Of a DNA stretch of 64,000 bases, positions 21,126 through 64,000 are shown one piece after another (position 1 is the stretch's first letter; every line of letters starts with the position of its first letter). The DNA is from Branchiostoma floridae (taxonomy: Eukaryota; Chordata; Leptocardii; Amphioxiformes; Branchiostomatidae), in contig NC_049990.1 of NCBI RefSeq assembly GCF_000003815.2, positions 22,480,623-22,544,622 of the forward strand. Reading direction: 5' to 3'. The notes under the pieces were generated by a model. It was not told the DNA's origin. It made no database searches and saw only the letters and a list, made by a program, of their open reading frames with translations. Position numbers and translations under genes: made by a program.

Positions 21126-21171
21126 TGTTCACAATATATGTGTTCTTTGCTTGACTTTATTTGCACAATGC

Positions 21172-24684: not shown

Positions 24685-24874
24685 TGGCATTGCTGTTACT
24701 GAATCACAACAATTAATTTTCAGTACAAACTGCTAGTTATCCAACTGATTTGGCTCTGAGTTTCTGATAAGCTAATAATGCAGAATTTATAGCACCCAAA
24801 CCCTTTAAAAGTTTCATTTCTTTAGAATTAAAAGTTGATTCCTGTTTGTTTCAGAAATAAAAGCCTTCATAAAA

Positions 24875-32695: not shown

Positions 32696-34530
32696 ATGGC
32701 TCTCAGGAAAGAACTTGTCGTAGCCACGTTTCCTTGGCTGATGCTGGTGATTGCTTGCACAGCTGACCCCTGCCTTCCTCCCTCGTGTCACAGAGGTGAC
32801 TGGTTGGCATGTTTGCATCACGGTATGGGAATGCACTACCGGTCTTCAGAAGGCACATGTATCTTGTGTAATTACGTCCAGGGAAACAGCGTGGTCCCTA
32901 GTCGTGATGGTGCAGCATTCTGCCAGATTGACACAGCTCTCGCAATAAGACGCCATCCATTCGGCGTTCTATTAGCAGAGAAAGTAAAGTCATTCGCCCT
33001 CCCTTTAGTAGAGACTTTGGTTCTGATAGAGGATGAAATCACAGACGTGGAGAAAGGCTCTCTGAGTGGGTTTTCTCGTCTGAAGAAGTTGGAGCTGGGC
33101 TACAATAGGTTGACTCATGTCAAACAGCATTGGTTCACTGGCATGGAGAAGATCAGCTTTCTAGGCTTATCGAATAACAAAATAGCAAAGATTGACCCAG
33201 GGTGCTTCAGAAACATACGTTTGCTTATAGAGCTGAACCTAGAGAACAACTCGTTACATGTTGTAGACCATGACTGGTTCCTCGGATTTGCCAAGATGGC
33301 GTACCGGCTGTACTTGGGGGGAAATGACATTGCAAGTCTTCCTAGAAGCGCATTCAAAGATATGTTTCTGGATCAATTGTACCTGCAGAGAAATGCACTG
33401 TCTTGTCTAGATTGGGGGCTATGGTTGGATCCGAAGTTTGAAGTTTTCTATGTCAGCGGTGACAGGTTGATGACAGTCTTTGATGAAACGCCATATAGAA
33501 TGGTATGGAGCCTTGCCATACATAAAACAGGCATTACAGACAAGATCATCATCACTATGGAAGTGACAGACTTCTATCTCTGTGTCATAAGTAATACACA
33601 GAATGAGAAGTCCCTTGTGTGGAAGTTTGATTCAGTAAAGAGCGTACCACGCTACAGATCAATGGAGTTTGCTGATCTCTGCGCTGGGTCCGACAGAGAT
33701 CCGCAAAAGATCATCAGTTTTCCCCGGTTTGTTGTCATCGCTACCGATGCTCCCCCCGACGAGCTTGCCCTACACTATCCCGATAAGTGCAGACAAGCGT
33801 GGAAACACAATGCCGGTATTACGGTGGCCTTCAAGGATAACTCAGCCGTACAACTGGTTTCTATGGGTGTAAGAAACACAAGCATTACAGATATTGCCAT
33901 AATTTTTGACAACACAAAGGACACAAAGACAGCCGGCACCCATGCAAGCACCGACTACACTAAGAACATATCCTGCATGGTGCTCTCCAAACGTAGCCCA
34001 TTTCCCGTGTCCTTCAAAATTTTTCCAGTCCAAAGAAAGCTCCAGCAGGCATGTCCAGGGCACAGAAATGACACAGAACAAGTTAGCTCTCTGACAGAAG
34101 TTCCGGATGAAGTATCTCAAAGTTTTGAAGACCACAAACCTTCGACACCGGTAGTCCAAACCACACTAATGTCATTGGTAACTACGTCTACATTGCAGGT
34201 CACTACATTCGACCAAAACAGATCAACACCAAAGCCTAATATTATCCCAGTTGTTGTCTCAATAGTGGGGATTCTATCCCTGATACTCTTGGTAGCCTTT
34301 TTGCTGAAGATATGCCTACCACATGTACGAAACGACGCCTTACAGAACAACATTGCTACCGGTGATATACAAGGACGGAGTCAACCAGGTCTTGTTTCGT
34401 GCACGGCAATGTCTTCAGGTCTATGTGCGATTACATTCATTGACGATGATCTCCCACACACATACTGCGAGATCCCAGATCATCTTGCCGCTGCCCAGCG
34501 ATCCCTACCTGCCTTCCCGCATACGTGTAG
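32696..34530 (+). CDS. leucine-rich-repeat single-pass membrane protein, cut by gap
   Basis: A single open exon. I choose the ATG at 32696 (MALRKELVVATFPWLMLVIA) because it gives a clean signal peptide; an in-frame ATG lies six codons upstream. After a Cys-rich N-cap (CLPPSCHRGDWLAC) come five to six leucine-rich repeats, for example LKKLELGYNRLTHV, ISFLGLSNNKIAKI, LIELNLENNSLHVV and LDQLYLQRNALSCL. A ~250-residue region without repeats and a Ser/Thr-rich stalk follow. The transmembrane helix is VVVSIVGILSLILLVAFLL (bases ~34250-34306), then a Cys/Lys stop-transfer. The cytoplasmic part includes HTYCEIPDHL, a possible Tyr motif, and enters the 999-N gap. Such LRR surface proteins are numerous in lancelets and often act in recognition; a specific role cannot be assigned. 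The tail and stop codon are not visible. Confidence 0.85.
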
Positions 34531-44596: not shown

Positions 44597-47500
44597 CTAG
44601 GCGTCTGTACCGTCGTCGTAGCCGAGGTCGCGATAAGCAACCTTTATGTCGTCCTTCACTGGTTTCGGAAATGCCAAGCTGCCATACAAAATAAGAAACA
44701 ATTATAGTTATCAGAAGGTAAAGGTTTTGGGAGCTTTTCACTAAGGCCCCGGCAAGTAAATTTTATGGACGGCATCCTCTGCAGACTCTAAATTTAATGC
44801 GAGATGGCGAAAAACAAGGTGGCTAGAGTTTCAAATCAGACACCATAAATGCTGTAACAGGAATTGATGCGTCCAAGCATGGCTTCAATGTAAAGTCTTG
44901 TACTTCTGTATTTAAGAAATCCACAAAAGGATACTAATTATGGTAGACTAGTATCACTTACCAAGTTGACAACTAGACTATAGTCATGGCTACCACATGT
45001 CATTGGTGCCATTTTTGCTATCGAACTAGTTTCACTTCAACAATTCTGTACATGTACTTCACTAGTGACAATTCTACAAGCACAATCAATGCTACCACAC
45101 GATATATTTCCCTCTTTTTTTTACTTTTTCGTAATGTTTATCATCTCCGGAGCGGGTATTCTTGTGTTTTTTTTTTTAATTCAGGAAAAAAATATGAGAG
45201 CACTGGTACCATCCATAAAATTTACTTTCTATGCCCTAATGATGAGTAAAGCAATAGTCCACTTTGCCATGACACGAGCAAGATTAGGAACTCACCGTCT
45301 GCGGTAGACGTAAAACCCTACGAGAGCCGCGATGACTACAGCCAGGAGGAACCCAATCACGGCGCCGGCGATCGTACCTCCGGATGTAACAGGTGCTGTG
45401 TAGGAAAAGCATTCAGAAGGATGATGAGATTTCTGGCACTTATTGCAATGAATCGAATATATAGATAAAACAGGGGCGACCTAACACTCTATCTCAGGGT
45501 TACTTCTAACAAGAAACAGATTATATATAAAGTTACATCTAAAGATGATATAATATTGTTTCAATCAATCTAGAGATTGTTTTCGAAAATCTGGAGATTG
45601 TATGAAACGTGTCTGGAAATTGTTTGAAAACTATCTGGAGATTTAAAAATCCGATTGTTTAAAAAAACTCGAGATTGTATCTGGAGATCATTTGAAAGCA
45701 GGAGATTGTCTGAAAAAATCTGGAGATTGTTGAAAGAAGTCCACAGATTTTCCTGTGGAAAATGGCATAATTTTTTTTTTCAATTTTCAATGACACATGA
45801 TGATCCCCTCTGATACGTACAATGTCATCAAAGTTTTGTTTACAAAATATCAACTTGATAATAACCTGTAAAAGTTAGAAGCTTTTGTCCAAAGTGCATC
45901 ATTTAGTCTATACTATAGAGGATGTTACATATTGTCCGAAAATAAATAAAATCCTAGTTTGGCCGATATTGATCATAAACTCGTCTTATATATTGAGGAA
46001 TAAATCGCTTTTTAAATCTTTGGAAGTTACATTTTTCAGTCTAAATGTTTCAAGAAAACGGGAGATGACGAAAACCTTACCTGCGGTTGCTTTTTCCCCC
46101 GTCTGTCCTTCCTCCGTATCCGGTATGTCGTCACAGTTGTTCTGTTTGCCGGGTGTTGGGGCGGACAGGGCGAACTGTGACAGGGTGACGGGATCAGTGC
46201 CTCTGCACCTGCTGAGCGACTCGTCTATGTCTCCCGGGTAGTGCACCTGCGACTCGTGTAACGGCTTCTGTCCAGGTGTGAGAGTCTTCAGGATCAGGTT
46301 ACTGCCTGTCCACTCACGTGTAGAGTACACCACGGCGTCTATGAGGTTGTCCAACGTCACAGGCATCCCCTTCTTGTACCGTCCGCCCGGATCGTAGTAC
46401 AGAGCCACGGCGTCTTCTCCGTTTTGTATGACGTTTTGGAACCTGTCTAGTTGATAGTCCGGAGTTTGACGCAAACCTTCCGTTCCTATAACAAAATACC
46501 CTTTCGGTGGAATTGAGTAGCCTTCTAAACCAATAGCTAGGTACACTTTATCCCTGTTACCGTCGTATAACACTACGGAGACGGAGTCTAGTGATACAGT
46601 CTTCGACTCTTTGTTGTAGAGCTCTATGAATTCTCTCCGGTCATACGAGGGGTTGCCTACGTTTATTTCGTTGATGATGATTTTGGGCGCTTTGGACGAA
46701 CAGTTGTTCCTAGCGCCGGGTGTTGGGTATGTTAGGGCGAAGTTTGATAGCTCGCGGGGGGTTACACCGCCACATCTACCGAGAGATTCATCCACGTCGT
46801 CGGCATTGAAACTGGAGTCTTCATGGAGGGCCTTCTGTCCAGGTGTCAGGGTGTTCAAAAGGACGTTAGTTCCTTCAAAGACTTTCTTTGAGTAGACTAC
46901 TGCGTCTATCAATCCCTCAGTTGTAACAGGCATCAGTTTGTAATACCGTGCACTCGGGTTGTAATACAGACCAATTCCGTCTTCCCTGTTTTTCAACAAT
47001 CTTTCGCTTTTGTCAATGACGTAGTCCGGGCGAGGGACGACCCTTTTTGATCCAACCACGAAGTAACCCTTTGCCGTGATTTCTCTCCCAGTGAGGTCAA
47101 TTATTTCGTACGCCCAGTTATGATCATCGTCGTAGAAGATCAGGTAAACAGAATCGAGTGGTATCCTGAAGTCGTTTGGGTTGTACAACTCGACGAACTC
47201 ATGCTTATCCTGTTTCGGGTTGTCTGCGTTGAACTCATTGATGACAAGATTGGGTGTTGGAAGAGGGCGACAGTCGTTTGGGCGTGATGGCGAAGGAAGA
47301 GTCGCCTGGAACTGGGAGATGGCCCGGGGAACGAACCCGCCACACCTGCTGACAGACACGTCAATGATGCCGCTCTCCACGACAGCGCTGGAGCCAGGGG
47401 CCAAGACATCTATGAGCGGTGTGTGGGTAACGTTGGGGTGCTTGGTGTAAACTACCACGTCGACGAGGTCTCTAGCGATGGGGTTCATGCCGAGTTTGTA

Positions 47501-50500
47501 AAGATCTGGGGTGAGAGGATCGCTGTAATACAGCGCCACGGCGTCAGGTCCGTTCTGGAGGATCCTCGTCCCCGCTTGCAGCACCATGTTCGGCTTCGGT
47601 ACAACGTTCTTTGTGCCGATGACGAAATACCCGTGTGGCTCAACTGCCTGTCCGGCTAGGGACATGATTCCATAGGCCTTACGTAAAACGTTCCCCTCGA
47701 ACAGTACAATAACGAAGTTGTCAAGCAGTACAGCTCGGTTCTCCGTGTTGTAAAGTTCAATGAACTCTTGCTTGTCTATGGAAGGATTGTCGGCATTGAC
47801 TTCGTTAATGATGATGATTGGTGTTGTTGTAGGGATTGTTGCTGCTGTTTGGTCAGGTGTTGTTGTTGTAGTTGTTGGTACATCTGTTGTCTGTGAGACA
47901 CTACAGGCGTTGGGTGCACGTGGAGTTGGAGCACTTGACTGAAAAGTGGACAAATCTTTTGCATTGAGTCCTGAACATCTGCTTATTGATTTGTCAGTCG
48001 TTTGAGCCTCTTTGCTTTCTATGATCGTGTTCTGTCCAGGAGCTAGTACCGTCGTCAGGGGGGTGTTCACTAACTGTTGGTACACGGTGTATATGACGAC
48101 ATCTACAAGATTGAGACTCGTCGGATCCATGCCTATGGTGAAGTCACCTGGTGAGCCGTAATACAGAGCCACGGCGTCGGGACCGTTCTGTAAGATGTTC
48201 TGTCCCTCGCCAAGAATCACGTCCGGAACAGGCTGGACGTTAGCCGTTCCTATGACAAAGTAACCTTTCTTTGGGATTCTCTGTCCTGTGAGGGGGATAA
48301 CATCGTACGCTTTGGGCGAAGAAGCGCCGTCGTATAACACAAGCACGAAGTAGTTCAGTATCACGTCATAGTCCTCTGTGTTGTACAGTTCGATGAACTC
48401 CTGGTCGTCTACTGAAGGCATGTCAACATTGATCTCACTGAGTATTACTCCTGGATAGTTACTCACGGGAACCACCGTGCAGTTGTTCCTCCTACCAGGA
48501 GTGACAAATCCGAGTTTGAACTGGTCTAACCGCAGTGGGTCGTTCCCCGTACATCTACTGATGGATTCGTCCACGTCCCCGGCGTTATGTTGGGAGTACT
48601 CGATCAGAGCTTGCTGTCCAGGTGTAAGCGTGTTCAAGATGGCGTTACTTCCGTCCCAGAACCTTACAGAATACACCACTGCATCTATCAGGTTGTTAGC
48701 CGTTACAGGTATCTGGTAATAGTTGTCACCGCCGCTTGGGTTGAAGTAAAGTGCGACTCCGTCCTCTCCGTTCTGAAGGATGTTTTTGCCCCTTTCCAAT
48801 GCAAAATCAGGACGAGGGACAACAAGGGAAGACCCCACGACAAAGTAACCGTCTGGTTCTATTTCATACCCGCTCAAGTTGATGGCACTATACGCGCGGT
48901 CATTGTTACCATTGTACAAGACGAGGAAGACAGAATCCAGAGAAACCTTCTCCATCCCTGGATTGTAGATTTCTACAAATTCCATCGTGTCGAACCTTGG
49001 ATTGTCGGCGTTCACTTCGTTTATTACGAGCCTCGGCGGTGCTCGTGCGGGTGTCGGCGGGGCAGTCGGCAAAACTCGGCAGTCGTTTATCTCCGATGGG
49101 GAGGGGTAGGTGGTCTGAAACATCGCCTGGACGCGTGGGATGGTCCCTCCACACCGGCTAATGGACGCGTCAGGAATATCCGCTCTTTCCAGGATAGCTC
49201 TCTGACCAGTTGTTAAGATGCTGGCTAGCGGCGTGTCCAGTTTATTACGATATTTGCTGTAGACGACGGCATCGGCCAAATTTACCGCCGTCGGTGCCAT
49301 ACCCGTTTGATATGCTGACCTATCATAGTAAAGCGCAACCGCGTCTGGGCCATTCTGTAATATATGCTCTTCCCTGGGTAGAACTATATCCGGTAGGGGT
49401 TGGACTTTACCGGAACCAACGGTGAAGAATCCGTTTGCTTGCACAGTTTGTCCCCGCAAAGGAATAACTTCGTAAGCCTTCATCGAGTTGCCGTCAAAGA
49501 GGACAATGACGAACCCGTCTAACGCTACTGCGCGGTTCTCCTGGTTATATAGTTCTATGAACTCCTGATCGTCAGCAAAAGGGTTGTCGGCGTTTATTTC
49601 ACTTATGATGACGTTAGGTCGCAGGGTAGGAAGTGGTTGGATCGGTGTTGGGGTAGAGGTGGGCAGGGCCGCTGTTGTTGAGATTATGACCTCTCGACAA
49701 TCGTTTACGCGAGCTGGAGAGGTGTATGTTGCTTTGAACATGGATAGATCTCTTAGAGCGAGGCCACCACATCTACTAATGGAAGAGTCTACGGCATCGC
49801 TTTTTGTGATGAAGTTTTGCCCAGGAGCTAACACATTCACCATCGTTGCCAGTGTTGGGTTGGACATCTCGCTAGCTTTGGCAAAGATGACAACATCTAT
49901 GAGATTTCTGGAGGTGGGTGCCATTCCTACCGTGTAGTCAGTCGCTTGTCCGTAGTACAAGGCAATCGCCTCGGGTCCGCCTTGATGAATATGTACGCCA
50001 TAGTCAAGCGCTTTGTCAGGTACCGGCTGTACGTTTCTACTACCGATAACGAAGTATCCGTTCGGTTGGATAAAGTATCCTATCAGGGGGATCACGGCGC
50101 ATGATTGGGTAGGAGAACTGCCTTCGTAGAGGACGAGAACGAAATAGTCCAATGAAATGGCGCGACTCTCCGGGTTGTAAAGTTCGATGAATTCCTGCCC
50201 ATTGGTTGGAGGATCTTCTGGGTTGGCTTCACTGATGACTAGCGCTGGTGGAGGGAACGGGACTGGTAATTCCGTCTGTTGAGGAGCTGGTGTTGCCGGC
50301 GGGGTAGGACAGCTATTGGCGCTGGCTGGTGTGGGTGTTGTAGCACGAAATTGCGACAAGACTTTGGGCGTGAATCCTCCACACCTGCTTATAGACGGAT
50401 CAATCTCAGAACCTTCCAACACTATGTTCTGTGAAGGAGCGAGTATGTTCAGTAGCGGGGTGGATGTCATGGAGGAGTACTTAGTGTATATCACAACGTC

Positions 50501-51514
50501 TACTAACTTATCAGCCGTCGGTGCCATCCCTACGGAATAGTCGGTGAGATAACCGTAATAGAGAGCCACTGCGTCGGGCCCATTTTCTAAGATGTTCACT
50601 CCCTTTGGTAGAATGTAGTCCGGTACAGGTCGGACGTTTCTTGACCCGACAACGAAGTAGCCACCTGGCTTGACGACATATCCGGTGAGACTGATTACGT
50701 CATAAGCGTTCGCGGTCGTACTTCCGTCGTAGAGCACGAGGACGAAGTTATCCAGCACGACATCGCGACTTTCGAGGTTGAAGAGTTCGATGAATTCCTG
50801 GTCGTCGACCATGACATTGTCGGCGTTCACTTCGGAGATGATCACAGCTGGAGTTGGGGGGAGGACGGGGCGAGGTTCCGGGAGGGTTGGGGGTCCGGCG
50901 GTGGGGGGAGGTGGGTCACAGTCGTTTACTCGCCCGGGGGTAGGGTTCCCTGATTTAAACCTGGACAGGTCTATAGGAACAATGCCATTGCAACTACTGA
51001 TGGAAACATCTGTACCGGAAATTTCCGTGACAATGCTTTGTCCCGGTGCTAGAGCTTCCAGTAGAGATGTTGGTCTTGGATATTTGGTGTAGATGACTAC
51101 ATCGACCAAGCTGCTTGTTGTAGGAGCCATGCCCACCGCAAAGTCCGCCGGATTGCCATAGTAAAGCGCCACTGCATCCGGCCCGTTCTGTAAAATATTT
51201 TCTGCGGTAGAAAATATCTTGTTTGGAGTCGGCTGGACTTTAGCTGACCCGATGACGTAATATCCCTTTGGCTGGACTATGTCGTCATTTCCGAATGTGA
51301 TGACGTCATACGCACGTGATGGGTCGGTCTCTCCGTTGTACAGGACGAGGGTGAAGCTTTGCAGGGACACGGGCGTGCTGCCGGCGTTGTAGAGTTCAAT
51401 GAACTCTTGGTCGTCGATGGAAGGGTTGTCGGCGTTGATTTCGCTGATGATGACAGCGGAAGAGGCGGCTCGGAGGACGGACAGCAGGAGCAGAACTTTC
51501 CATTCCATCGTCAT
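44597..51514 (-). CDS. LTD gene 1: surface protein with nine lamin-tail-like domains, 1871 aa
   Basis: Exons: 51514-46081 (giant, 5434 coding nt), 45395-45296 (100 nt) and 44678-44597. Phases agree (1, then 2). Start: ATG at 51514 sits directly after an AG acceptor; an upstream in-frame ATG at 51523 is the alternative. Signal peptide MTMEWKVLLLLSVLRAASS. Nine modules of ~190 residues follow, each starting like VIISEINADNP then QEFIELYN, continuing with GYFVIG, NGPDAVALYYG and VDVVIYTKY, and closing with SRCGG and a second Cys (NDC/NNC). The first half matches the lamin tail domain fold (Pfam LTD). Module order is A-A-A-A-B-A-A-B-B; B modules read INEVNADNP, NGEDGVALYYNP and DVDESLSRC. Pro/Thr-rich linkers separate A modules. 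Transmembrane helix in exon 2: GGTIAGAVIGFLLAVVIAAL, then YVYRRR. The 27-residue tail ends VAYRDLGYDDGTDA. The paired Cys and signal peptide point to an extracellular chain. Function unknown. Confidence 0.9.
44754..45227. mobile_element. MITE-like family F4, copy b
   Basis: Left end AAGTAAATTTTATGGACGGC and right end CATCCATAAAATTTACTT. It aligns along its length with 39065-39558 and sits in the last intron of LTD gene 1. Confidence 0.75.
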
Positions 51515-51523
51515 CTGTTTCAT

Positions 51524-53490
51524 GATACAAATACAGGGCAGATAACACAGTCAGACCTCTCCATAGGAAAGCATGTTAAGATACACTGAAACAAGGCTTC
51601 AGAAAAGTACTAACCCAAATTTCAATCTTAAAAACTATTCTCTTCCTGAAAGTCACAAGGATCATCATAATAACCATTAAAAAACAGGCTCAAACTCCGA
51701 AAGCTCGCTCTATGAAAGAAACCTCACCTTTGACCCCAGTTTTCTCCTGATACCACCCGTATAACCAAAAAAACTAAAATCCTTCCGCGACAAACCCTAA
51801 CCCAAATAGTCTACAGATTAAGCCAAAATCTTCAAGGAAAAATAGGATTTTCAAGGATTTCACTTGCATGTCACTTGTTTAGTTACGTGTAAACCAGGGC
51901 AAACCAGGGCACCAGTATACTGGCTACAAAGTGACGTCACGTAAATTTTAATTTTCAGCATTCTATACATAACAACCTTTCTCAATGCGCGAGTTTACTC
52001 AACAGATACAGTACGACATGGTAGTGTCATCCAGATGTGCACAGTTTGCAATTGTTTGTTTGTTTGCTTGCTTGCTTGCTTGTAAAACAAATTTTGGCGC
52101 CTTCATTATGAAATCTAAGTGGCCAGGAAGGTTGAACAAATGACTGAACACACAGGGTAAGGTATACCGAACAATGGATTCTTCAGTTTTGTTCTTTCAC
52201 ACCTTCTTCTTTGACTTTGTGACTGACTTTGTCATTCTTCGACATAATAGTAGCCTTCTTCGATATTCAGTTTTTGCGGCATGAATAAACAAAGGTTCAA
52301 ACAGACAAATTTAGTCATATTGCAGCTGCTTTGTACGCTTGACAGTATGATCATTTTTAAACGGTCGAAAATTGATATGCACGTGGATGTGATCCATATA
52401 ATCAAATCAACATGGCCTTATGAAATAAAATCTTCCGTGATATACAAAATTCCAATTGGTTTATAGGAACATGTTGACCCAAGGTCCCACGGCTATATGA
52501 ACCTATTGGGTCCCTATCACAGCATACTTGGAAAGATCAAACAAAAGTCATGCCATATCAGTACTGTAATCGATCAGTAGCACCTGCCATGATAAAATAC
52601 CACGAGAAAACACACGTGGGAATGTTTCTCTAACAAGTTGTCAGGCTGTTTGTTCAGCAATGTCAGGTCATAGTTCACTTTTATTATGTGATTTATAATA
52701 AGGTTTTATTGCAAATTCATGCCCATGGAGCTAATTGCAAGTGAACAAAAATCAAATACATGAAGTAATTGAAAACAGCTAAATGATATAATCAAGCTCA
52801 GAAATCACTAAAGTTACGTAATTATTGAACTCTAATCCCCCTTGTGCATACCCCTTGCAGTTTGGATAACCCAATTTACCACAGAGACTATAACCTTTCA
52901 GACAGCTCGCTCATTATTCTGCACCTCAGTGTGTGTAATGACATAAACCCGTTAATTAGGGGGCACTATTTTTTTCAAATGTAGTTTTTGCTGAAATACA
53001 TCCCTAGAATTTACCACAATCCTCTGAGTTGTCATGGCAACAGTGAAATACGTTTTGCTGGCCATCTGTTTTTGTACTGGGCCGTACAAGCAACCTAGTG
53101 CAAAGGGAAATGGCCAGCAAAAGTGTATCATGAGCCAAAAGAGACGGAAAGGGACCCAGCGAGCCTGCTATGGAGGCTACTAATGTTGAGTATCTGACTT
53201 AAGTTAGATTGAAATAACCATTTCCATTTATTCTGACTTGTACAAGTACAATTCTTGTACAAGCGTCCCAGTCATAATTTTTACATTCCTTCATATGGCC
53301 ATTCACATTCACAATTCTATATTCTTCATGCAATGATTTTCTTAGTAGGGTGATGTAATCCTAAACTGCATATCAAATAATAAAGCAAATATGGGGAGGG
53401 GAGCAGTATAACGAGAAGAAAACACAACAACAGAAACATTTATAATCCCTGTAGAACTGAGAATACATCAACAATGTTCATGAAAGATTC
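51524..53490. other. LTD gene 1 upstream region / probable 5' UTR intron
   Basis: If the donor at 53497 is used, this is an intron of about 2 kb. It contains the F2 copy b and a repeated 11-mer (AAACCAGGGCA) at 51891-51910. No coding feature is seen. Confidence 0.4.
52085..52412. mobile_element. MITE-like family F2, copy b (one end clear)
   Basis: The right end ATCCATATAATCAAATCAAC is the F2 terminus. Interior blocks TCATTATGAAATCTAAGTGG and CCAGGAAGGTTGAACAAATG match copy c. The left terminus is replaced by a (TTTG/CTTG)n run. Confidence 0.65.
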
Positions 53491-53497
53491 TACTTAC

Positions 53498-53620
53498 CAC
53501 TTCTGTCGCTCTGGCGTGGTTCCTTGCCGATGAAACAATGTCTACGGTTTGAAACTTCTTCGGTAGTTGCGGGAAGGAACAATGACACTATTTGTTACAG
53601 AACAGGACAGGTAAGAAGCG
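53498..53620 (-). other. probable 5' UTR exon of LTD gene 1
   Basis: Reading leftward, CGACAGAAGTG is followed by GTAAGTAGAATC, a strong splice donor at 53497, which would join to the AG just before the ATG at 51514. Gene 2 shows the same plan at 59089. The 5' boundary is unknown. Confidence 0.45.
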
Positions 53621-53674
53621 TGGGTGATAGATAATATCGTGTGTCACAACTATCTAATCGTCAGAGAGGTATCG

Positions 53675-53774
53675 NNNNNNNNNNNNNNNNNNNNNNNNNN
53701 NNNNNNNNNNNNNNNNNNNNNNNNNNNNNNNNNNNNNNNNNNNNNNNNNNNNNNNNNNNNNNNNNNNNNNNNNN
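53675..53774. other. assembly gap (100 N)
   Basis: A run of exactly 100 N next to a long tetranucleotide microsatellite, which probably broke the assembly. Confidence 1.
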
Positions 53775-53805
53775 GTATGTATAAACCCAAAACCCATCTA
53801 TACTT

Positions 53806-54325
53806 GCAACTATCTGTCTGTCTGTCTGTCTGCCTGCCTGCCTGTCTGTCTGCCTGTCTGTCTGTCTGTCTGTCTGTCTGTCTGACTGTCTGTATGTATA
53901 GTGTCTGTCTGCCTGTCTGCCTGTCTGCCTGTCTGTCTATCTGTCTGTCTGTCTGTCTGACTGTCTGTATGTATAGTGTCTGTCTGTCTGTCTGCCTGTC
54001 TGTCTATCTGTCTATCTGTCTGTCTGTCTGACTGTCTGTATGTATAGTGTCTGTCTGTCTGTCTGCCTGTCTGTCTATCTGTATGCCTGTCTGTCTGTCT
54101 GTCTGTCCGTCTGTCTGCCTGTCTATCTGTCTTTCCGACTGCCTGCCTGTTTATCTGTCTGCATGAATGTCTTTCGGTCTGTCTGTATTCCTGTCTGTCT
54201 GTATGTCTGTCTGTATGTGTGCATGTCTGTGTGTGTGCATGTCAGTCTGTCTGTCTGTATGTATGTATGTCTGTATATATATATCTTTCTGTATGTCTGT
54301 CTGTCTGTATATATCTATATATCTT

Positions 54326-54395
<70 letters not shown>
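53806..54395. repeat. (CTGT)n / (CT)n / (AT)n microsatellite
   Basis: About 590 bp of CTGT tetranucleotides with a higher-order repeat (CTGACTGTCTGTATGTATAG recurs three times), passing into CTCT and then a pure AT run ending near 54395. ORFs across it are artefacts. Confidence 0.97.
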
Positions 54396-55125
54396 ATGAA
54401 TTTTCATTCATCCTTGCACACATCGTCATGAGACTACATCCATGCGAAATGAAACATCAAAGGAAAGACAATACACAAGAAATAGATACTTTGTAACGTT
54501 CAACGTTTGTTGATGTATGTTATGTTTTCTCATTGTAGCAAATTTAGTTTCCAGTCTACTTACAAGTATGTAATAATTTACTATGGTAGGTACATGAGAC
54601 ATCATACATGTATGTAGTATTTACTTGTACCTACCGGCTATATTTCTATTCTATCCATACTTGATTAGATCACAAAACAAATTGTTGTTTCTACTGAGCG
54701 CCTTGGGAAAACGCTCAGGCCAGAAATCATTCGTCGTAATTCACAAGCATGTCGAAATACAATCAAAGATCAAAATATTCTTAAAACAAATGACAATATC
54801 TATAGTCGGTGTTTTTTTATATCTGCTCGGATAATGGGCAATTGATAAAATGAAACTTAAAAAGGATTTATGGAAAAAGTCGAATATACAAGAAAAAGGG
54901 ACCTAATACGATATTTTCTTAATAACTAGAACTAACTTTTATATATAGAGAGAGGGTATCTAACATAACGTTTGTCACCATCAGTCTATGTGAGGAGGTT
55001 TGTGTCAAGAAAAGACTATTCTAAACCATTCACCATATTGATGACACTGAAAACATGACAAATAGATAAAATATGATATCGACTTAAGTCAGAACAGGCT
55101 AACGCTAAATAGGTCGATTTAAGAA
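54396..55125. other. no gene seen
   Basis: AT-rich spacer downstream of LTD gene 2 with no supported feature. Confidence 0.4.
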
Positions 55126-55327
55126 CTAACGCTAGGTCACCTTTATCCATAGGGTAACCTATATCCGTTCTTACAGAACAATGGGATATCAAGTCGACGG
55201 ATGGTGGTTTCAAATTGCAATATTTTGAAAATAGTACAATTTGAAACTATCGCCCATCGACTGGATATCCCTGTTTAGCAACACAACGGATATAGGTTAC
55301 CCTGCGGATAAAGGTGAACTATCGTTA
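55126..55327. mobile_element. palindromic MITE family F1, copy D, just after LTD gene 2
   Basis: Left end AACTAACGCTAGGTCACC then TTTATCC, right end GCGGATAAAGGTGAACTATC. It ends 58 bp beyond the stop codon of LTD gene 2, so it probably lies in the 3' UTR. An extra AACGCTAA unit lies just outside its left end. Confidence 0.85.
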
Positions 55328-55384
55328 CCTATCACTAACATTTCTTAGCAGTTTGTAAAATGATAGATGAGGATAATCGTTTCC

Positions 55385-58300
55385 CTATAACTCCAGGCCC
55401 TCCTGTTCCTGAGGTTTGGTGTTTTTGTTCGTCACGGCGCTGTAGGCCAGGGAGAAGACGTCATCACCTCTGGACGAGCCCATCCTCCTGATAGGGGTGA
55501 ATAGTTAAGTTCAGTACAGTTTTAATGAGATTTTTTTAAATAAACTGCAAGAGGTGCCATCTTGATTCTTATATAATCGCTGTATTAGTGTATTCCAATA
55601 GTATTGTAGCTCTTAATATTGACACAGCAGAGCACTGGGAGGACCTTGCAAATGACAGATCCAGCTGGAGATTCACACTGTTCAGACAGCTAAAATCAGG
55701 AGAAACCAGACTGATGCGCATGGCATAAAAAAAGGCAGATCCTGCTAAAAGAACTTTACAACAGACCTGAGTCAGCTTACACAAGTATGTGGCAGAGACT
55801 GTCATTCTCGTATCTATAGGACTGTTTAGCCAAAGCCGACACTGTATGGCTGATTTCAATTAGGATTTTACCATCATGGTAAATATTGACAGAAGGGGGC
55901 CAATATAGCGTATTCCTAGATCCTGGGAAGATGAAGGTGTTCTTACCACCGACGGTATAGGAAGAAGCCACCAATAGCCCCAACAGCCAGGACAACCCCC
56001 ACTACGATCACGATGGCCGCCACAGTACCGCCATTCGATTTACCTGTATGTAGGAGTGCAAATTTATACAAACAGACTTCGTTAGAACCAACATCATTTA
56101 GAACATCCATCACTTTATGTACAATGTTGATGCCATGTTGGAATGTGTGGGTGTCTTACGACAGTTGAAGGTCTTCATAGTATGCCTTAGACGGTTGACA
56201 ATGGCTAATAATGGCTAATGATATCACTAATGCTTTTGTTATGTGAGAAAAAATGCATGGCGGAACCAAGCTTGTAGTACGCAATGTAGAGTACACAATG
56301 TAGAGTAACTGCGCTGTAACAACCAAGCATGGGTATTTTCTTTGCATGGCAAAACAACACATCTAGGGTTCCGGCGTTATGTGCAAACAATAGCGGGTTC
56401 AAAGGTTAAAGAGTTTGTTTCATCATCGTCGTGTAAACAAAACATGTCTTAGTGAAATGATAGAAGGAATGCATCTTCAAGAACTTGATGTGTTTATAAA
56501 CGTAGATCGAAAATTGTTATTGCAAAGAAAACACTTATTGTGCAGAACGTGGGACAATGTCATCGCCTTCAAAGAAGAAGCTAAACTCTACAATAGTCAA
56601 CAAAGTTGACAAGACATTATGTACTATATCTACTTTACTCTTACCCTTACTTAAAGACTGTGCATGAAACCGGCCTTTGGAAATGATTTTGCAAGATAAG
56701 AAGGAGTTAGACTCTACGATGGTCAACATAGTACCTTCTAGTTGATTAGACATTAGTAATATTTACCGTATACACTTTTCTGTTACTCTTATTTTAGAAC
56801 TATACATGCATATGATTTTGTAAGATAAACATTAAATTTCCCACCTTGAGTGCTCATCTGTGGGCCCGGCACGTTTGGCTTATTTGGCGTGTAGTTGTCG
56901 CACATGTTTGGTTCGCCTGGGCTGGATTTTACCAGTTTACTGTTCCATTGGTCAAACTCTATCGGCCCGTTCCCGCCACACCGGCCCAGAGACAGGACAA
57001 TGTCCCGTTGAGCTGCGGTAGTGTCGTCATACAGGGGGTCAGTACCCGGCATCAGCGTTTTCAACACCTCGTCGCTGCCTTTCCAATTTTTCGGGGAATA
57101 CACTATTCCGTCTATCAGGTAGTTAAACGTTAGAGGCATTCCGACAAAGTACGAGCCGCCTGGATCGTAGTAAAGGCCAATGCCCCCCTCCCCACTCAAG
57201 ATAACGTCTTCATACTTGTCAAGTTTGTGGTCTGGGATAACGGTTGGGTTGTCAGGTGCAATGATGAAGTAACCGTTAGCACGGATGGTGTACCCGCTTA
57301 GATCAACTGCGATGTGCGCCATGTTGTTTTCACCGTTGTAGAAGACTATGAAGACGGAGTCTAGAGTAACCACCTTTTCTTCTGGGTTGTACAACTCGAC
57401 AAACTCCTTGGCAGAAGAAGGGTTGTTGGCGCCGAATTCGTTGATGACGACCTTAGGCGCGTTGACTGAGCAGTTGTTCCTACTGCCAGGTGTGGGGTAG
57501 GAGACGACGAACTGTGACGAGCTGCGGGTTCCAAGACCCTTACATCGGCTCAGAGACTCGTCTACGTCGCCTGGGTTTGCGTTAGCGTCCTCGTGTAAAG
57601 CTTGCTGCCCCGGAGTCAGGGTCTGCAGGACGGTGTTGGTGCCGTCCCACGAGCCTGTGGAGTACACCACCGCGTCCAGCAGGTTGTCAGCTGTGACCTC
57701 CATCAGTTCGTACAGCCGTGAGTCCGGGCTGTAGTACAGCGCGATGCCGTCCTCACGGTTGCCCACGATGTTCTGTCTCGGGAAGACGTAGTCAGGACGA
57801 GGGACGAGGTCACCGGAGCCTACGACAAAATAACCTTTAGCTGTGATCTGTCTACCGGTCAAGTCCACGACTTGCGAGGCCCAGTTTTTATCCCCATCGT
57901 AAAAGATCAGATAAACGGCGTCTAGGGGGATGTCTTCATCACCAGGGTTATACAGTTCAATAAATTCTTTCGTATCATATGAAGGATTATCGGCATTAAC
58001 TTCGTTAATGACGACGTTTGGTTTGGGTGGTGCGCGGCAATCGTTGGCAGTACCAGGAGAAGGATAGGTGGCCCTGAACAGGGACAGGGTGAGGGGGGTC
58101 ATCCCGCCACATCTGCTGACGGATACGTCCACGATACCGCTCTCCAGGACCTCTAACTGACCGGGTACCAGCGCGGTGATCAGCGGGCCGTTGTTTATGT
58201 TGGCGTGCTTGGTGTACACGACCACGTCCATGAGACTCTCTCTTGTTGGCGGCATTCGCTTCGTGTACGCGGAGGGTGTACCATAGTACAGGGCTACGGC

Positions 58301-58711
58301 GTCCGGGCCGTTCTGCAAGATGTCCCGCCCCTTCTCCAGAACAAGGTTCGGTCGTGGCGTAACGTTGGACGAGCCGATGACGAAGTACCCGTGCGGCTGG
58401 ATGGCGTGCTGGCTCAGGTCTATGACGTCATATGCCCGCTGGAGGACACTGCCGTCGTACAGGACGATGACGTAACCCTCCAACAAGATGGCGCGATTCT
58501 CGGTGTTGTAGAGCTCGATGAACTCTTGGTCGTTGTCAGATGAGGGGTTGGCGGCATTGACTTCGCTGATGATGATGAGTGGCGGGTCAACGTCACGAAC
58601 GTGTACGTCATGGTTCTTTACGTCACGGCCGTCTTCCGCATGTGGGTCGTTAGATTGACCACAGTGGGTGGAGCTCAGACACAGCAAGACGAGAAACAAA
58701 ATTCGCCCCAT
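55385..58711 (-). CDS. LTD gene 2: surface protein with three lamin-tail-like domains, 688 aa
   Basis: Exons: 58711-56845 (1867 nt), 56043-55947 (97 nt) and 55487-55385; phases 1 then 2, as in genes 1 and 3. The ATG at 58711 is chosen because an acceptor (TTCTACAG) lies two bases upstream and the resulting MGRILFLVLLCLSSTHC is a good signal peptide. A ~30-residue acidic/His linker precedes module 1 (type A: ISEVNAANP, QEFIELYN, NGPDAVALYYG, SVSRCGG, NDC). Module 2 is type B (INEVNADNP, NREDGIALYYSP, DVDESLSRC, NNC). Module 3 is a diverged B (INEFGANNP, GEGGIGLYYDPGG, SLGRCGG, NMC). The transmembrane exon reads GGTVAAIVIVVGVVLAVGAI with FFLYRR. The 35-residue tail is RMGSSRGDDVFSLAYSAVTN onward, ending GLEL. 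Type-I single-pass topology is inferred; no function is known. It is the shortest complete member of the array. Confidence 0.9.
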
Positions 58712-59088
58712 TTCTGTAGAATACAAAAACATAAAGAACACCTTGAGTTTGTGATTTATGCAGTAACAAACAAGCAACAAGCTACGACAAGTCTTTTAGT
58801 AAAGAACGTTCTGATTCTACTTTCATCCAATACACGCATGTAACTGTAAGGCGAAAGACAGAAAATAAACGAACAGAGGGCAGACAAGTGTCTATGGCTC
58901 AACACAGAAGAAAAGAGGAGGTTAGGGAGGTAATCATTACATGAACAACATTTTACGAAACGAACTTCAGGTAGTAGATTACAAGGACTGCCTAGCTTTA
59001 CTACCCAAACATTCTGACAGTGCTTTAAATGCCTAAAATTTACAGAGAAACGGAATAGTACAGAAGGCAAGAGCCGGAAGACACCTAC

Positions 59089-59200
59089 CTTATAGAACAG
59101 ATAGACTCCTAGATCCGAAATGGCCTAGTTTTGTAAGACAGGGAGTGTGTAGAAGAACCGTTTGTACCGGACACTGTGAGAACGAACCCGGCGTGGGCGA
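59089..59200 (-). other. probable 5' UTR exon of LTD gene 2
   Basis: Reading leftward, CTGTTCTATAAG is followed by GTAGGTGTC, a good donor at 59088, with the matching acceptor two bases before the ATG at 58711. The intron would be 375 bp. The 5' boundary is unknown. Confidence 0.5.
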
Positions 59201-59307
59201 CCTGTCCACCGCGCACCAATTGATGTTATAAGTGTAATCCCTTGGGAAAACATGCGCCGTTTTTCCAGTACGTTCTGGTTATGGTTTCGGCTTACATGTT
59301 AGGATAA

Positions 59308-59510
59308 CGGCACATTTCTAAACCGGTGCCCGATCGGGCTGCAGCTGTTTTGGGAAAAGAATAATAGAAATATATACGTAAAAATGTAGACAAATAATGC
59401 CAATGACTATTCTCTTTACGTTTTGTGTAGTTCGGTGCATTTTGTATCATACATTTCGTTCCAGAAATCTACCCGACCGGGCCCCGGTTAAAAAAAATGT
59501 ATCTTAGGCC
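59308..59510. mobile_element. MITE family F3, copy c
   Basis: Left end GGCACATTTCTAAACCGG and right end CCGGTTAAAAAAAATGTATC, with interior ATGACTATTCTCTTTACG shared in inverted form with copies a and b. It lies in the promoter-side flank of LTD gene 2. Confidence 0.65.
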
Positions 59511-61390
59511 TTACTGAAGGACTTTTCCGTTAGTTCATTGCAGGGTAAGGTTCAGAAAAAAAGGTGTGTCAAATCTAATACAGACTACAAGCACTAAATG
59601 ACCCCGTGTCGTCCCCACTATTAAAACAGCGCGCCGGCTATCCACTGGACGCAAAAACCTCAGGATCCCTAAATGGAAATTTCCACCTTTTTTTCTGAAA
59701 AGAACTTTATGTTGATTTCAAGTGATTTTCCATGTGTACAAAAACACCACCATTCAATATACAAACAGTATGGGAGGAGGGCGTAACAAGTACGGACTTT
59801 TGCAAGCTGTTTTATCCAAACTTCCCACGGCGTTTATCTCTGAAGGAGAACACGGACACATACACCTGGCACCGGTATCATATTTTCAGCGAATCATAAT
59901 TGCTTGCATCATAATTCTATAATATCTATACGTCGGGTTATCATTTCGTGCTGCTGTTTCGTATGTATGAAATTCAAGTAAATGAATAGTTGAGTAAAGA
60001 CCGAAGTTGCCGGTGGAAAGTGAGTGATGTCAACATATATCCTTTACCTCCTTATAACGTACCTGCAGTGATTATTACATGAAAATAGGTGGCGCTGTTA
60101 CGACAGGTTACAGGGACGCCTCGCCCGAGCCTAAGAACGATCCTTATGTTAACTCGTGTTTTAAAAAAAAGCGTTTATGCCAATACAATGTACATGAATA
60201 CACCAGATCTTGCTTGGGAAGGAAATCATCACAGGCGTAGATTCTAATCTCTTATAGTAGTATATTTGTTGAAATTTTTACCTGCCTGAACGACAAAAGC
60301 CTACCACAGCCTAATCTGCAGTACCGCTCCCGGCCGCCTTGAGACAATCAGCAAAAACAAGCGTCAAATCTTACAAATTTCAGTCTTTTCGAGAATGAGG
60401 AAATTGAGAAAGACTCGCAAAGGGGTTTGCCGTTTGTACACTTGTTTGACTTTGACTTCGAAGATACAACCAGTCGAAAATAGGAGTAAGAATCCTTAAC
60501 AAACAAGAATATTTCACAAATCGACAATATGAAAATAATATGTTGACTATGCGTTCGTACGAATAGAACTTGCCGGATATACATTTAATTGTTGTTATTG
60601 TCACGTTAGCAGATAGGTATGACAAACCTTCTTTACGGAAGGGCGCGTTGAAAAGGTGTCACGAAATCTCAACAACCCTCTTTCGACAACAATGGCAGTA
60701 CGAATGTCTTTCTCGATACATCATTTATTCATCATTGTCGTTTGACTATTACAAAAAATATCTTCAAAATAGTTGAGTCCAGTTAACGTGTACTATATGA
60801 TCTGTTACCGTACTGAGTTTCTATATATAGCTCTATTTCCACAAAAAATGGCGCCATGTTTTATGTAATCTAGAAGTACTCATACGATACAATACAACAG
60901 TGATACAAGGATTACAGTATGTGCGAAGACAGAAACATCGAGCAAAATACACATACTTATCAGATTATAGCTGCAAATGTTGTCAGAATGTCTATTATTT
61001 TGTTTGATGAAATTTTCTTTTGTTTGAGCGCATGATACTCACAGTGATACTCAATTCCACCAGAAATATACAACCTTAAAAAGTAAATGAATTTCACTTT
61101 GACGTAACGACCTAAAGTCATACTCTTGTGGTAACAGTACATAGATACTCGTTTATTGAGTCTGTAGACACATTGAATCATTATCTTCTCTGTGACTTGT
61201 TTAAACATAATGACTTAAAAGCGTGTATACTAGGCAGTGTAAAGCGCAATGTTGCACAGTGTATGGCTCATACTACTCAGACCTTCAAATCTTACAGGCA
61301 AAAGTTAGTAGCACTGACAATGTTCTGTAATTGTATATGGTGGAAATCTGCATTGTCTAACATTTTATTGGAAATCTCAGAAGCTCAGAA
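59511..61390. other. no gene seen (LTD gene 2 / gene 3 spacer)
   Basis: AT-rich sequence between the two genes. Short ORFs have no recognisable motifs. Promoter elements for LTD gene 2 may lie near 59200-59300, but none could be identified. Confidence 0.4.
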
Positions 61391-61394
61391 ACAC

Positions 61395-61450
61395 GCACAC
61401 ACTCACACTTTCACTCACACACACACACATACATACATACATACATACAC

Positions 61451-61483
<33 letters not shown>

Positions 61484-61535
61484 TACATACATACATACAT
61501 ACATACATACATACATACATACACACATACAAACT
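61395..61535. repeat. (CA)n / (CATA)n microsatellite
   Basis: About 140 bp of CA and CATA units, located about 170 bp after the LTD gene 3 stop codon. Confidence 0.95.
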
Positions 61536-61707
61536 TACATACATTAGAAGCAATACAAAACAGTACTAAAGTCCATCGGGTGAATGAAGTTAACTCTTCT
61601 AAAGTGACTAATAAAAAGGCCGTAGCTATATCTCATAATGCTTGACGATAAGAAAACAACACACCCCATAGCTAGCTACTTGTATTTATCAACCATGACC
61701 CTGCCCT

Positions 61708-64000
61708 CTACGTATCTGACTCGACGTTGTTGACTTTGTTGAGGTTGTCTCCGTGCTCGAAGTTGTAGAGAACGTTATCGAAGCCGTCGTACGCTACAGG
61801 CAGCCCGGTCACCTTGACTGCACTGTCCGGTCCCATGTTGTTGTACCCTATCCCCGACTCTGCCTTCGCTCCGAACTCCGAGGTCAATCTGTCAGAAAAT
61901 TAATGAAGGAAAATATTGACATGGGTGTAGAAAAGATAAGGTATAGGAAAAATGGTGTTCTGGTTCTTCGACCAGCCTAGCAAAAAAACTATGTATGTGT
62001 AAAATATCTGTATAGACTTATCAGGACTTTAAATGAATCAGGTTTAAACTGTACCTCTGTTATACAATTTGCGTGACCTCTTCCCTCATGACCTCAATGA
62101 AAAGCGGCTAACAGCCATGGCCAGATTTGAGATTTCATGAACAAACAAAGGTCCAAACAAACAAACAAAATCCTCCCGAGCCCTTGGCGACTGCCGGCAA
62201 GGGACATAAAATCTTTTATCTGAATGATGAAAAATTCACAACAAAATTCCAAGTAGACTTCCAAATTTTCTTACATTCTTCCTTCACTTAACGCACTGTT
62301 AACATATAAAAGTCGAATGCGAAGAATGCAAAGTACTTCTTTGCTCAGATTATTGATATAATTATGCTTGGATTAAATATTTATATAATTATATATATAT
62401 ATATATATGTACGTATATACTGTTTGCTAGTAGATATAGAAAACACGGTTTACTGCAACTATATACACAGATCTTTTTGAATAGGAGAATAACTCACGAT
62501 GTTTTTCTCCTGAAGAGTACGAAGCCTGCCACCGCTGCTACTCCCAGTACGATCAGTACAGCTATCACCACTCCGGCTACTCCGCCTGGGGACAATCCTG
62601 GACACAGGAAAAAATCTTGAATTAGGATATAACGTTATTCTGCTAATACAAACAAGACATATTAAAGATGAAGGAAAGTATATTACTTTCTTTTTTAACT
62701 TGATTCCAAACTTTGAAAGATTTTAAACTAGGTCATGTTGATTTGTTTATGTGGATGATTATATCCTAAATTGGTGTGAGAGAGCGAACAAAATAAAATG
62801 TTTGGTAAAAAAAGTTGACTTCATTATGAAATTTAAGTGGTCAGGAAGGTTGAACAATTGGTCATTATTTGTTCTTTCCCATCTTCTTCTTTCATTTCGG
62901 GACTGACTTAAGTACCCATTTTTCGATATTTTTTTGCAACTTGAGGCACGCATTTGCTCATTTACAGTTGATAAGAAGGTTTTACAGGATGGTCGAAACC
63001 TTTTTGGGTAACAGTCAAACGTTGACGCGCGGATGTCATCCATATATATCAAATCAACCTCAAAGATATATTAAAGCAAGTCATCTAGTTGGTACAAAAC
63101 ATGCCTCACTCATACATACATATTTACCCAGATACATATTTAACAAGATTAATCTATGGGCATGGAAAGATGAAACATAGATGACATAAAATCTCTTACC
63201 TGACGAGTATTTACCAGTGTTCGGTAGACCCTCACAGTTGTTCTTGTCGCCAGGTGTAGGATAGGCCAGGACAAATTGTGACAATGTGATGGGGTCCACA
63301 CCCTTACATCTGCTTAGAGATTCGTCCATGTCATCAGGGTTGTGCCTGCTGTACTCGTGTAGCGCTTGTTGTCCCGGAGTCAGGGTGTTTAAGATGAGAT
63401 TACTACCATTCCAATAATTTGTTGAGTACACCACCGCGTCTAGTAAGTTCTCAGCCGTGACAGTCATGCCGCCGTAGTACCTGCCTCCAGGGTTGTAGTA
63501 CAGCGCTATCCCATCCTCGCCGTTTTGAAGAATGTTCTCGTTTCTCTCCAGAACTAGATCGGGCTGAGGGTCGACCTTTGCACTTCCGATGACGAAGAAA
63601 CTCTCCGGTGAGACCTCGTTCCCTGACAACTCTACCACGTTGTAAGCGAGGTCGGTGGCGCCGTTGTACAGGACGAGAAAAACGCCATCTAGCGACATCC
63701 TGAGTTTTCCAGGGTTGTAGAGTTCGATGAACTCTGCCGTGTCGTAGGACGGGTTGTCGGCGTTGACTTCGTTGATGACGAGCCCGGTAGGGCTAACGTT
63801 TGCGGCGGTGGTGACGGAGCCGGTTGGAGGAGGGAAGGTGGGGAGGGGGGCGCAGTTGTTGGGTCTTCCAGGTGTGTGGTACGTCGACCGAAACTGTGAG
63901 AGCGTGATGCGATCGTTGCCGCCGCACCTGCTCACAGACACCTCCGAGACAGTAGAGCTTTCCAGCACTATCTCCTGTCCGGGAGCCAGACGGCTGATGA
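61708..64000 (-). CDS. LTD gene 3: lamin-tail-like surface protein, 3' part (gene continues past window)
   Basis: Exons: 63200 to at least 64000 (open to the window edge), 62597-62498 (100 nt) and 61888-61708; phases 1 then 2. Visible in the ectodomain are the end of one A-type module (LAPGQEIVLES, SVSRCGG, NNC), a Pro/Thr linker, and a complete B-type module (INEVNADNP, AEFIELYNPG, NGEDGIALYYNPGG, DMDESLSRC, NNC). The transmembrane exon reads GGVAGVVIAVLIVLGVAAVA then FVLFRRK. The cytoplasmic tail, about 60 residues, is the longest of the three and contains SGIGYNNMGPDS and LPVAYDGFDNVLYNF, so several Tyr-based motifs. The start and further modules lie right of the window. This third member shows that the array extends beyond the region. 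Confidence 0.88.
62734..63058. mobile_element. MITE-like family F2, copy c (~325 bp)
   Basis: Left end CATGTTGATTTGTTTATGTGG and right end GGATGTCATCCATATATATC then AAATCAAC form the F2 terminal repeats. It lies in the intron before the LTD gene 3 transmembrane exon. Confidence 0.75.

Follow-up and report, generated by a model that had tools for sequence, protein, structure and literature searches.

What kind of protein is encoded by three genes that lie side by side on the minus strand of a 64,000-nucleotide stretch of the Branchiostoma floridae genome (contig NC_049990.1, positions 22,480,623 to 22,544,622; hereafter, the window), and how does a lamin-tail domain (LTD) come to stand in front of a membrane helix? 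The LTD is a module of the nuclear lamina, in lamins placed after a coiled-coil rod, and in bacteria it is an accessory of secreted hydrolases. The product of each of the three genes consists of a hydrophobic N-terminus, a chain of LTD modules, one hydrophobic helix, and a short tail. The observation is larger than it first looked: it concerns an unnamed animal membrane-protein family. The reading favoured here, tentatively, is that the genes encode multivalent endocytic receptors of a scavenger or clearance type, which would stem from an old animal family expanded in tandem in lancelets.

Gene models and LTD modules

The splice sites, as read from the sequence, are GT/AG with matching phases, and the membrane exon is entered in phase 1 and left in phase 2 in all three genes. 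The features are as follows, a slash marking the splice junction.

44597..51514, minus strand: gene 1, nine LTD modules, 1871 aa
51514-46081, minus strand: gene 1 exon 1, 5434 bases, hydrophobic N-terminal segment and nine LTD modules
46133..51457, minus strand: gene 1 LTD modules overall, nine modules, of which 5, 8, and 9 are of B type
50918-51457, 50309-50848, 49697-50245, minus strand: gene 1 modules 1-3
49079-49615, 48479-49033, 47903-48451, minus strand: gene 1 modules 4-6
47270-47818, 46700-47251, 46133-46684, minus strand: gene 1 modules 7-9
45395-45296, minus strand: gene 1 membrane-helix exon, acceptor ACAG/CACC, donor GACG/GTGAGT
44678-44597, minus strand: gene 1 tail exon, acceptor GGCAG/CTTG, cytoplasmic tail ...KVAYRDLGYDDGTDA and stop, YxxPhi motif YRDL
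55385..58711, minus strand: gene 2, three LTD modules, 688 aa, spliced frame open
58711-56845, minus strand: gene 2 exon 1, hydrophobic N-terminal segment and three LTD modules
56900..58579, minus strand: gene 2 LTD modules, 58037-58579 (A), 57470-58018 (B), 56900-57454 (B)
56043-55947, minus strand: gene 2 membrane-helix exon
55487-55385, minus strand: gene 2 tail exon, tail ...FSLAYSAVTNKNTKPQEQEGLEL
61708..64000, minus strand: portion of gene 3 inside the window, with the end of LTD module 7 and module 8, down to 63200
62597-62498, minus strand: gene 3 membrane-helix exon
61888-61708, minus strand: gene 3 tail exon, motifs YNNM, YDGF, and FDNVLY, first base placed by phase

The spliced frame of gene 1 was free of internal stops, and its C-terminal end was that of the annotated protein P0189, which has 1873 aa, stems from a hybrid of B. 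floridae x B. japonicum, and is 99% identical to gene 1. In P0189, the membrane helix has a hydropathy of 2.75 over 19 residues. The tail motif YRDL was present in both P0189 and P0190. The ortholog of gene 2 in B. lanceolatum, P0001 (Hypp7365, 691 aa), showed 85% identity, the same plan, and a matching tail. Gene 3 starts outside the window, at the window-equivalent position 68504; in the flanking DNA, its exon 1 encodes the N-terminus and most of module 1, while exon 2 is an open frame of 1520 codons, the junctions being taken from the annotated protein P0193. At 1693 aa, this protein begins with the gene 3 N-terminus, contains eight modules, and ends in a tail with a one-residue difference from the window sequence. 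Upstream of gene 3, the putative signal-peptide segment occurs in three tandem copies (MLPRLLSLFAVLHSV..., MLPTLLSLIAVLHSV..., MLPILLSVLAVLHSV...), of which the last alone runs into the LTD frame. The hydrophobic N-termini of genes 1-3 can be read as putative signal peptides, and N-terminus, LTDs, helix, and tail are joined in P0189 (gene 1), P0193 (gene 3), and P0001 (gene 2 ortholog), a joining that rests on protein annotation rather than raw RNA. The preliminary description of this locus had given the signal peptide-like N-terminus, the helix, the tail, and the nine and three modules correctly, whereas its count for gene 3, at least two modules, is to be replaced by eight.

The assignment of the modules to LTD, which the same description had proposed, was confirmed by a Pfam profile search and by the predicted fold. 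In a Pfam-A hmmscan of the three open frames, LTD (PF00932) was matched at 1.4e-103 in nine stretches of gene 1, at 1.4e-33 in three stretches of gene 2, and at 2.7e-10 in one stretch of the open frame of gene 3 in the window; LTD alone passed the cut-off, with neither a filament rod nor a nuclease (Exo_endo_phos) domain. A six-frame LTD search of the whole genome (513,431,437 bases; curated LTD cut-off of 34.3 bits) yielded 21 places, 20 of them in the cluster (9 + 3 + 8). The cut-off was exceeded by 19 of these 20 modules, the remaining one scoring 32.6 bits (3.4e-5). Likewise, 19 of the 20 lie within three long exons, and an intron interrupts only module 1 of gene 3. As sequence searches of the PDB yielded nothing beyond chance (no match at an E of 5 with gene 1, and a single chance-level match, a fucolectin at 0.24, with a module profile), a comparison of folds was needed, and the structure predicted for the modules was an Ig-like lamin-tail beta sandwich. 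Compared with the modules, the nuclear lamin tails (1ifr, 3gef, 3umn) are shorter, with 14-21% identity in structural alignments, and the region of the module that holds a pair of cysteines (159-183) lies outside the aligned ranges.

This pair, which had been described as fixed in each module, was borne out: both cysteines were found in 19/19 complete aligned modules and in 8/8 modules of P0193. Its constancy is compatible with a disulfide that would form outside the cell. The set used for the trees holds 79 non-bacterial modules, of which 77 have both cysteines; the EukProt protein P0211 accounts for the two exceptions. Moreover, since 17 of the 32 bacterial or presumed bacterial modules also carry both, including every module sampled from one Colwellia and one Caldilineaceae protein, the pair is no animal invention.

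Relatives in animals and bacteria

Three protein searches were made, from which the best 120 of 677, 120 of 225, and 120 of 489 matches were listed, with no more than 8000 candidates scored in each. Among the matches listed were lancelets, hemichordates (Ptychodera, with 12 modules, and Saccoglossus), echinoderms (9-11 modules in nine proteins and 7-8 in three more), the brachiopod Lingula (four LTD matches, one of them partial), and vertebrates (fish, amphibians, reptiles, and birds), the last with more than 100 proteins, mostly of about 920-1100 residues. Names of mammals, tunicates, and arthropods were not seen among the matches listed, many rows of which are nameless. Across the animal family, the ectodomain spans 3 to 12 modules. 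By its hydrophobic N-terminus, at least two LTDs with the Cys pair, helix, and tail, the cluster appears to fit an animal family of multi-LTD type I membrane proteins. A cluster of LTD surface proteins in an animal is less unusual than had been supposed, as the architecture is shared by several groups of deuterostomes and by a brachiopod.

Complete vertebrate proteins have four modules alternating between strong and weak, a helix, and a conserved tail. Those named LTD domain-containing or of the si:ch211-183d21.1 type (P0089 of Morone, P0226 of Alligator, P0260 of Xenopus, MGC145260.S) share with the cluster the type of N-terminus, Cys-pair LTDs, the helix, and a short YxxPhi tail, but their four modules are accompanied by one or two domains of about 105-135 residues that the cluster lacks. 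In the lancelet itself, a second LTD locus on chromosome 1 (C1:16036600-16049800) encodes a similar type of protein over many exons, in contrast to the long exons on C12. Its product (LOC118410187, P0204) and the echinoderm and hemichordate proteins P0194 and P0197 have an LTD chain, helix, and short tail as in the cluster, but differ from it in a conserved juxtamembrane domain and, in most, an NPxY tail. Another lancelet relative, P0003, continues after three LTDs into a long mucin-like stretch rich in Ser and Thr. About 10 kb beyond the cluster, on the plus strand (C12:22559431-22559700), lies what is left of a fourth LTD gene. It shares 75-79% identity with P0002, P0003, and P0126, all of them mucin-like, and comes to about half a module in the 28 kb scanned (22551001-22579000).

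The juxtamembrane domain separates the last module from the helix, is about 105 residues long, and was conserved in 11 of 16 non-vertebrate and 6/6 vertebrate proteins examined; the five non-vertebrate proteins in which it is missing include those of genes 1, 2, and 3. A CxC was constant in 13/13 aligned copies, the unaligned Xenopus copy being without it. A GSV motif, found in 9/11 non-vertebrate copies, resembles the self-cleavage site of SEA domains. Profile searches gave no SEA match to this domain, and in a model of the Alligator protein (pLDDT 76, pTM 0.39) it resembled ferredoxin/SEA-type folds below the level of identification (thyroglobulin 6.8, protocadherin-15 6.2, and TMPRSS6 6.0, with unrelated enzymes at 5.7).

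Among the matches listed, the named non-animal relatives were bacterial apart from one EukProt protein; the bacterial label of P0062, P0130, P0163, P0188, P0210, and P0223 was assigned in this analysis. In the EukProt protein P0211, six LTD matches come after a frizzled-type domain (Pfam Fz, 2.4e-15), and a membrane helix is also present. The bacterial LTD proteins (the Colwellia ExeM/NucH nuclease P0175; Caldilineaceae P0136; the presumed bacterial P0210; 4q1z BT_1938, DUF4876) have the extended module of about 180 residues seen in the cluster, and P0136, P0175, and P0210 also share its tandem modules and Cys pair. However, P0175 and P0210 differ in bearing nuclease, Big_5, or PKD partner domains, and no C-terminal helix was found in P0136, P0175, or P0210. 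The domain list of P0210 is nearly equal to that of the Promineofilum protein P0252.

Trees were built from modules of at least 150 residues and 30 bits, with five of nine bacterial loci included (L016, L019, L020, and L021 were left out), and two long rows of P0211 were removed before the second tree. In these unrooted trees, animal and bacterial modules separated at SH-aLRT 99. The B-type modules formed one group (SH-aLRT 100), into which module 3 of gene 2 fell without a resolved partner, and the B. lanceolatum copies of gene 2 modules 1 and 2 paired with gene 1 modules 7 and 8 (SH-aLRT 88 and 97). The 23 cluster modules, orthologs of gene 4 included, were not quite one group in the free tree (3 changes). 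As a tree forcing them together fitted no worse (AU p 0.63), a single lancelet expansion is compatible with the data, though not proven.

In B. lanceolatum, genes 1, 2, and 4 seemingly share one contig, and genes 3 and 4 likewise in another assembly, which suggests that the same cluster exists there. The module numbers 9/3/8 were identical in the annotated orthologs of that species, and eight modules were also counted in a relative of gene 3 that comes from a hybrid of B. floridae x B. belcheri. The lancelet orthologs were 83-86% identical; for genes 1 and 3, where 1690-1870 residues were compared, the gap columns numbered 9-25. Because the module numbers were constant between the species compared, the copy-variable arrangement under diversification that had been proposed was not seen.

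Tail motifs and possible functions

FxNPxY and YxxPhi are established adaptor-binding signals for endocytosis, the former being the signal of the LDL-receptor class. Motif counts in the tails were compared with those in shuffled tails (2000 shuffles). The invertebrate-type tails comprised 15 proteins of echinoderms, hemichordates, Lingula, and lancelet chromosome 1, with the near-copies P0203 and P0224 excluded, and the vertebrate-type tails were the 117 of 133 rows that passed a filter for helix and tail length. [FILV]xNPxY was present in 10/15 invertebrate-type tails (shuffle mean 0.03, maximum 1), and YxxPhi in 115/117 vertebrate-type tails (shuffle mean 59, maximum 77). At the place of FDNPLY in the chromosome-1 paralog, gene 3 and two orthologs have FDNVLY. 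The tails of this animal family look like uptake signals.

According to the receptor reading, genes 1-3 would have arisen by tandem expansion, within lancelets, of an old animal family whose members are type I membrane proteins. The ectodomain, a chain of three to nine lamin-tail-type beta sandwiches with one Cys pair in the C-terminal extension of each, would be anchored in the membrane by the single helix and exposed at the cell surface. The short tail, with its tyrosine sorting signal, would couple the protein to clathrin adaptors, and such a multivalent binding receptor would therefore be internalised together with its ligand. As some bacterial relatives bear a nuclease domain, nucleic acid or microbial surface material may be offered as a first guess at the ligand. 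Several points weigh against this reading. The top-scoring bacterial relatives, P0129 and P0136, are without a listed nuclease domain. YxxPhi occurs in 3/3 cluster genes and 6/6 cluster proteins, but is no evidence alone because this lies within the shuffle maximum of 6 (mean 3.0); in the invertebrate-type tails it is rarer than chance (3/15, shuffle mean 7.0). NPxY (FxNPxY) was found neither in the tails of the cluster genes nor in 5 of the 15 invertebrate-type relatives. Furthermore, as the sequences are related, the tail counts are not independent events, and tyrosine motifs are found on adhesion proteins too. Since the best-scoring bacterial relatives have no listed nuclease domain and YxxPhi is rarer than chance in invertebrate-type tails, the receptor reading carries slightly less than even confidence. 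A fuller scenario is unlikely as a whole: scavenger receptors as old as bilaterians, in which a bacterial-type extracellular LTD would have become the unit that binds extracellular DNA or microbial glycans, with uptake through FxNPxY or YxxPhi, would have been kept from fish to birds, lost in mammals, and expanded again in lancelets, where the juxtamembrane domain would have been dropped. The idea of a loss in mammals rests solely on no mammal name being seen among the matches listed, and tunicates and arthropods stand likewise.

The same architecture could belong to a structural or adhesive surface protein, in which the LTD chain would be a spacer or a rod for homophilic adhesion and the tail motif would control turnover only. 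The range of 3 to 12 modules in the family, the mucin-like stretch of P0003, and the ability of lamin tails to dimerise through an added edge strand, described in passages of PMC12051499, favour this explanation, which we consider rather doubtful, as in our judgement an endocytic-type tail signal in most groups exceeds the needs of turnover. The tandem cluster, modules compatible with one lancelet clade, and the repeated signal-peptide segment ahead of gene 3 would also suit a diversifying immune-type receptor family; this appears improbable, since B. lanceolatum has identical module numbers for genes 1-3, the B. belcheri hybrid protein agrees with gene 3 in this respect, and the orthologs show the 83-86% identity and the 9-25 gap columns (genes 1 and 3) given above. 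It is more improbable still that the genes encode a protein related to the nuclear lamina or to ExeM-type secreted nucleases. The domain family is shared, the NCBIfam ExeM profile covers the LTD part at 1.2e-34 (score 119.5 against a cut-off of 1300), and an Exo_endo_phos domain occurs in some bacterial relatives (P0175), but LTD was the sole Pfam family above the cut-off, hydrophobic N-terminus and membrane helix are present, and none of the C-termini (...DGTDA, ...EGLEL, ...VESDT) is a CaaX. Lastly, the bacterial names among the non-animal relatives would fit contamination or recent transfer from bacteria, an explanation with hardly any probability left. The cluster lies inside a 23 Mb contig and has spliced exons, other lancelets carry its orthologs and four more animal groups its relatives, and its modules fall on the animal side of the animal-bacterial split. 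Recent transfer is thus refuted; an ancient one is compatible with the trees because these are unrooted.

Remaining window features and significance of the family

Elsewhere in the window, four further features were noted.

10188-13421, minus strand: frame resembling a non-LTR retrotransposon, which holds domains of the Exo_endo_phos and reverse transcriptase types and an assembly gap
20277-21128, minus strand: frame with a Pfam Herpes_teg_N match (1.6e-6)
24839-25171, plus strand: exon with a cytochrome b5 domain, perhaps from a fatty-acid desaturase-type gene
32648-34528, plus strand: leucine-rich-repeat protein with a hydrophobic stretch resembling a membrane helix, adjoining an assembly gap

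In the open-licence PMC literature, searches whose terms in part matched loosely brought up no paper that deals with multi-LTD membrane proteins of animals. The zebrafish symbol si:ch211-183d21.1 is listed with -10.3 in a table row of PMC6423051, where retinal genes from an mpeg1:GFP comparison are given; this is not read here as a statement of function. MGC145260 appears in one genetic-map paper. The catshark 'LTD' in the relevant part of PMC11083954 is an SMP-LTD domain, different from the lamin-tail LTD. As far as the sections consulted go, a flatworm LTD protein also carries an intermediate-filament domain (PMC9229212), LTD and IF-rod domains are reported for octopus and not assigned to one protein (PMC11431876), and LTD-like non-lamin proteins are described in several eukaryotes, with no receptor named in those sections (PMC5630835). 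In excerpts of the ExeM paper, tandem LTDs are cited for bacterial secreted proteins, and ExeM without its LTD was a slower nuclease in vitro and hardly changed on plates (PMC6085458); an excerpt of PMC4486849 describes LTD as associated with DNA binding.

The genes in the window point to a conserved animal membrane-protein family built mostly from LTD, with members in Xenopus and in many fish under a zebrafish gene symbol. The receptor hypothesis is directly testable, and the family would allow one domain to be compared inside the nucleus and outside the cell.

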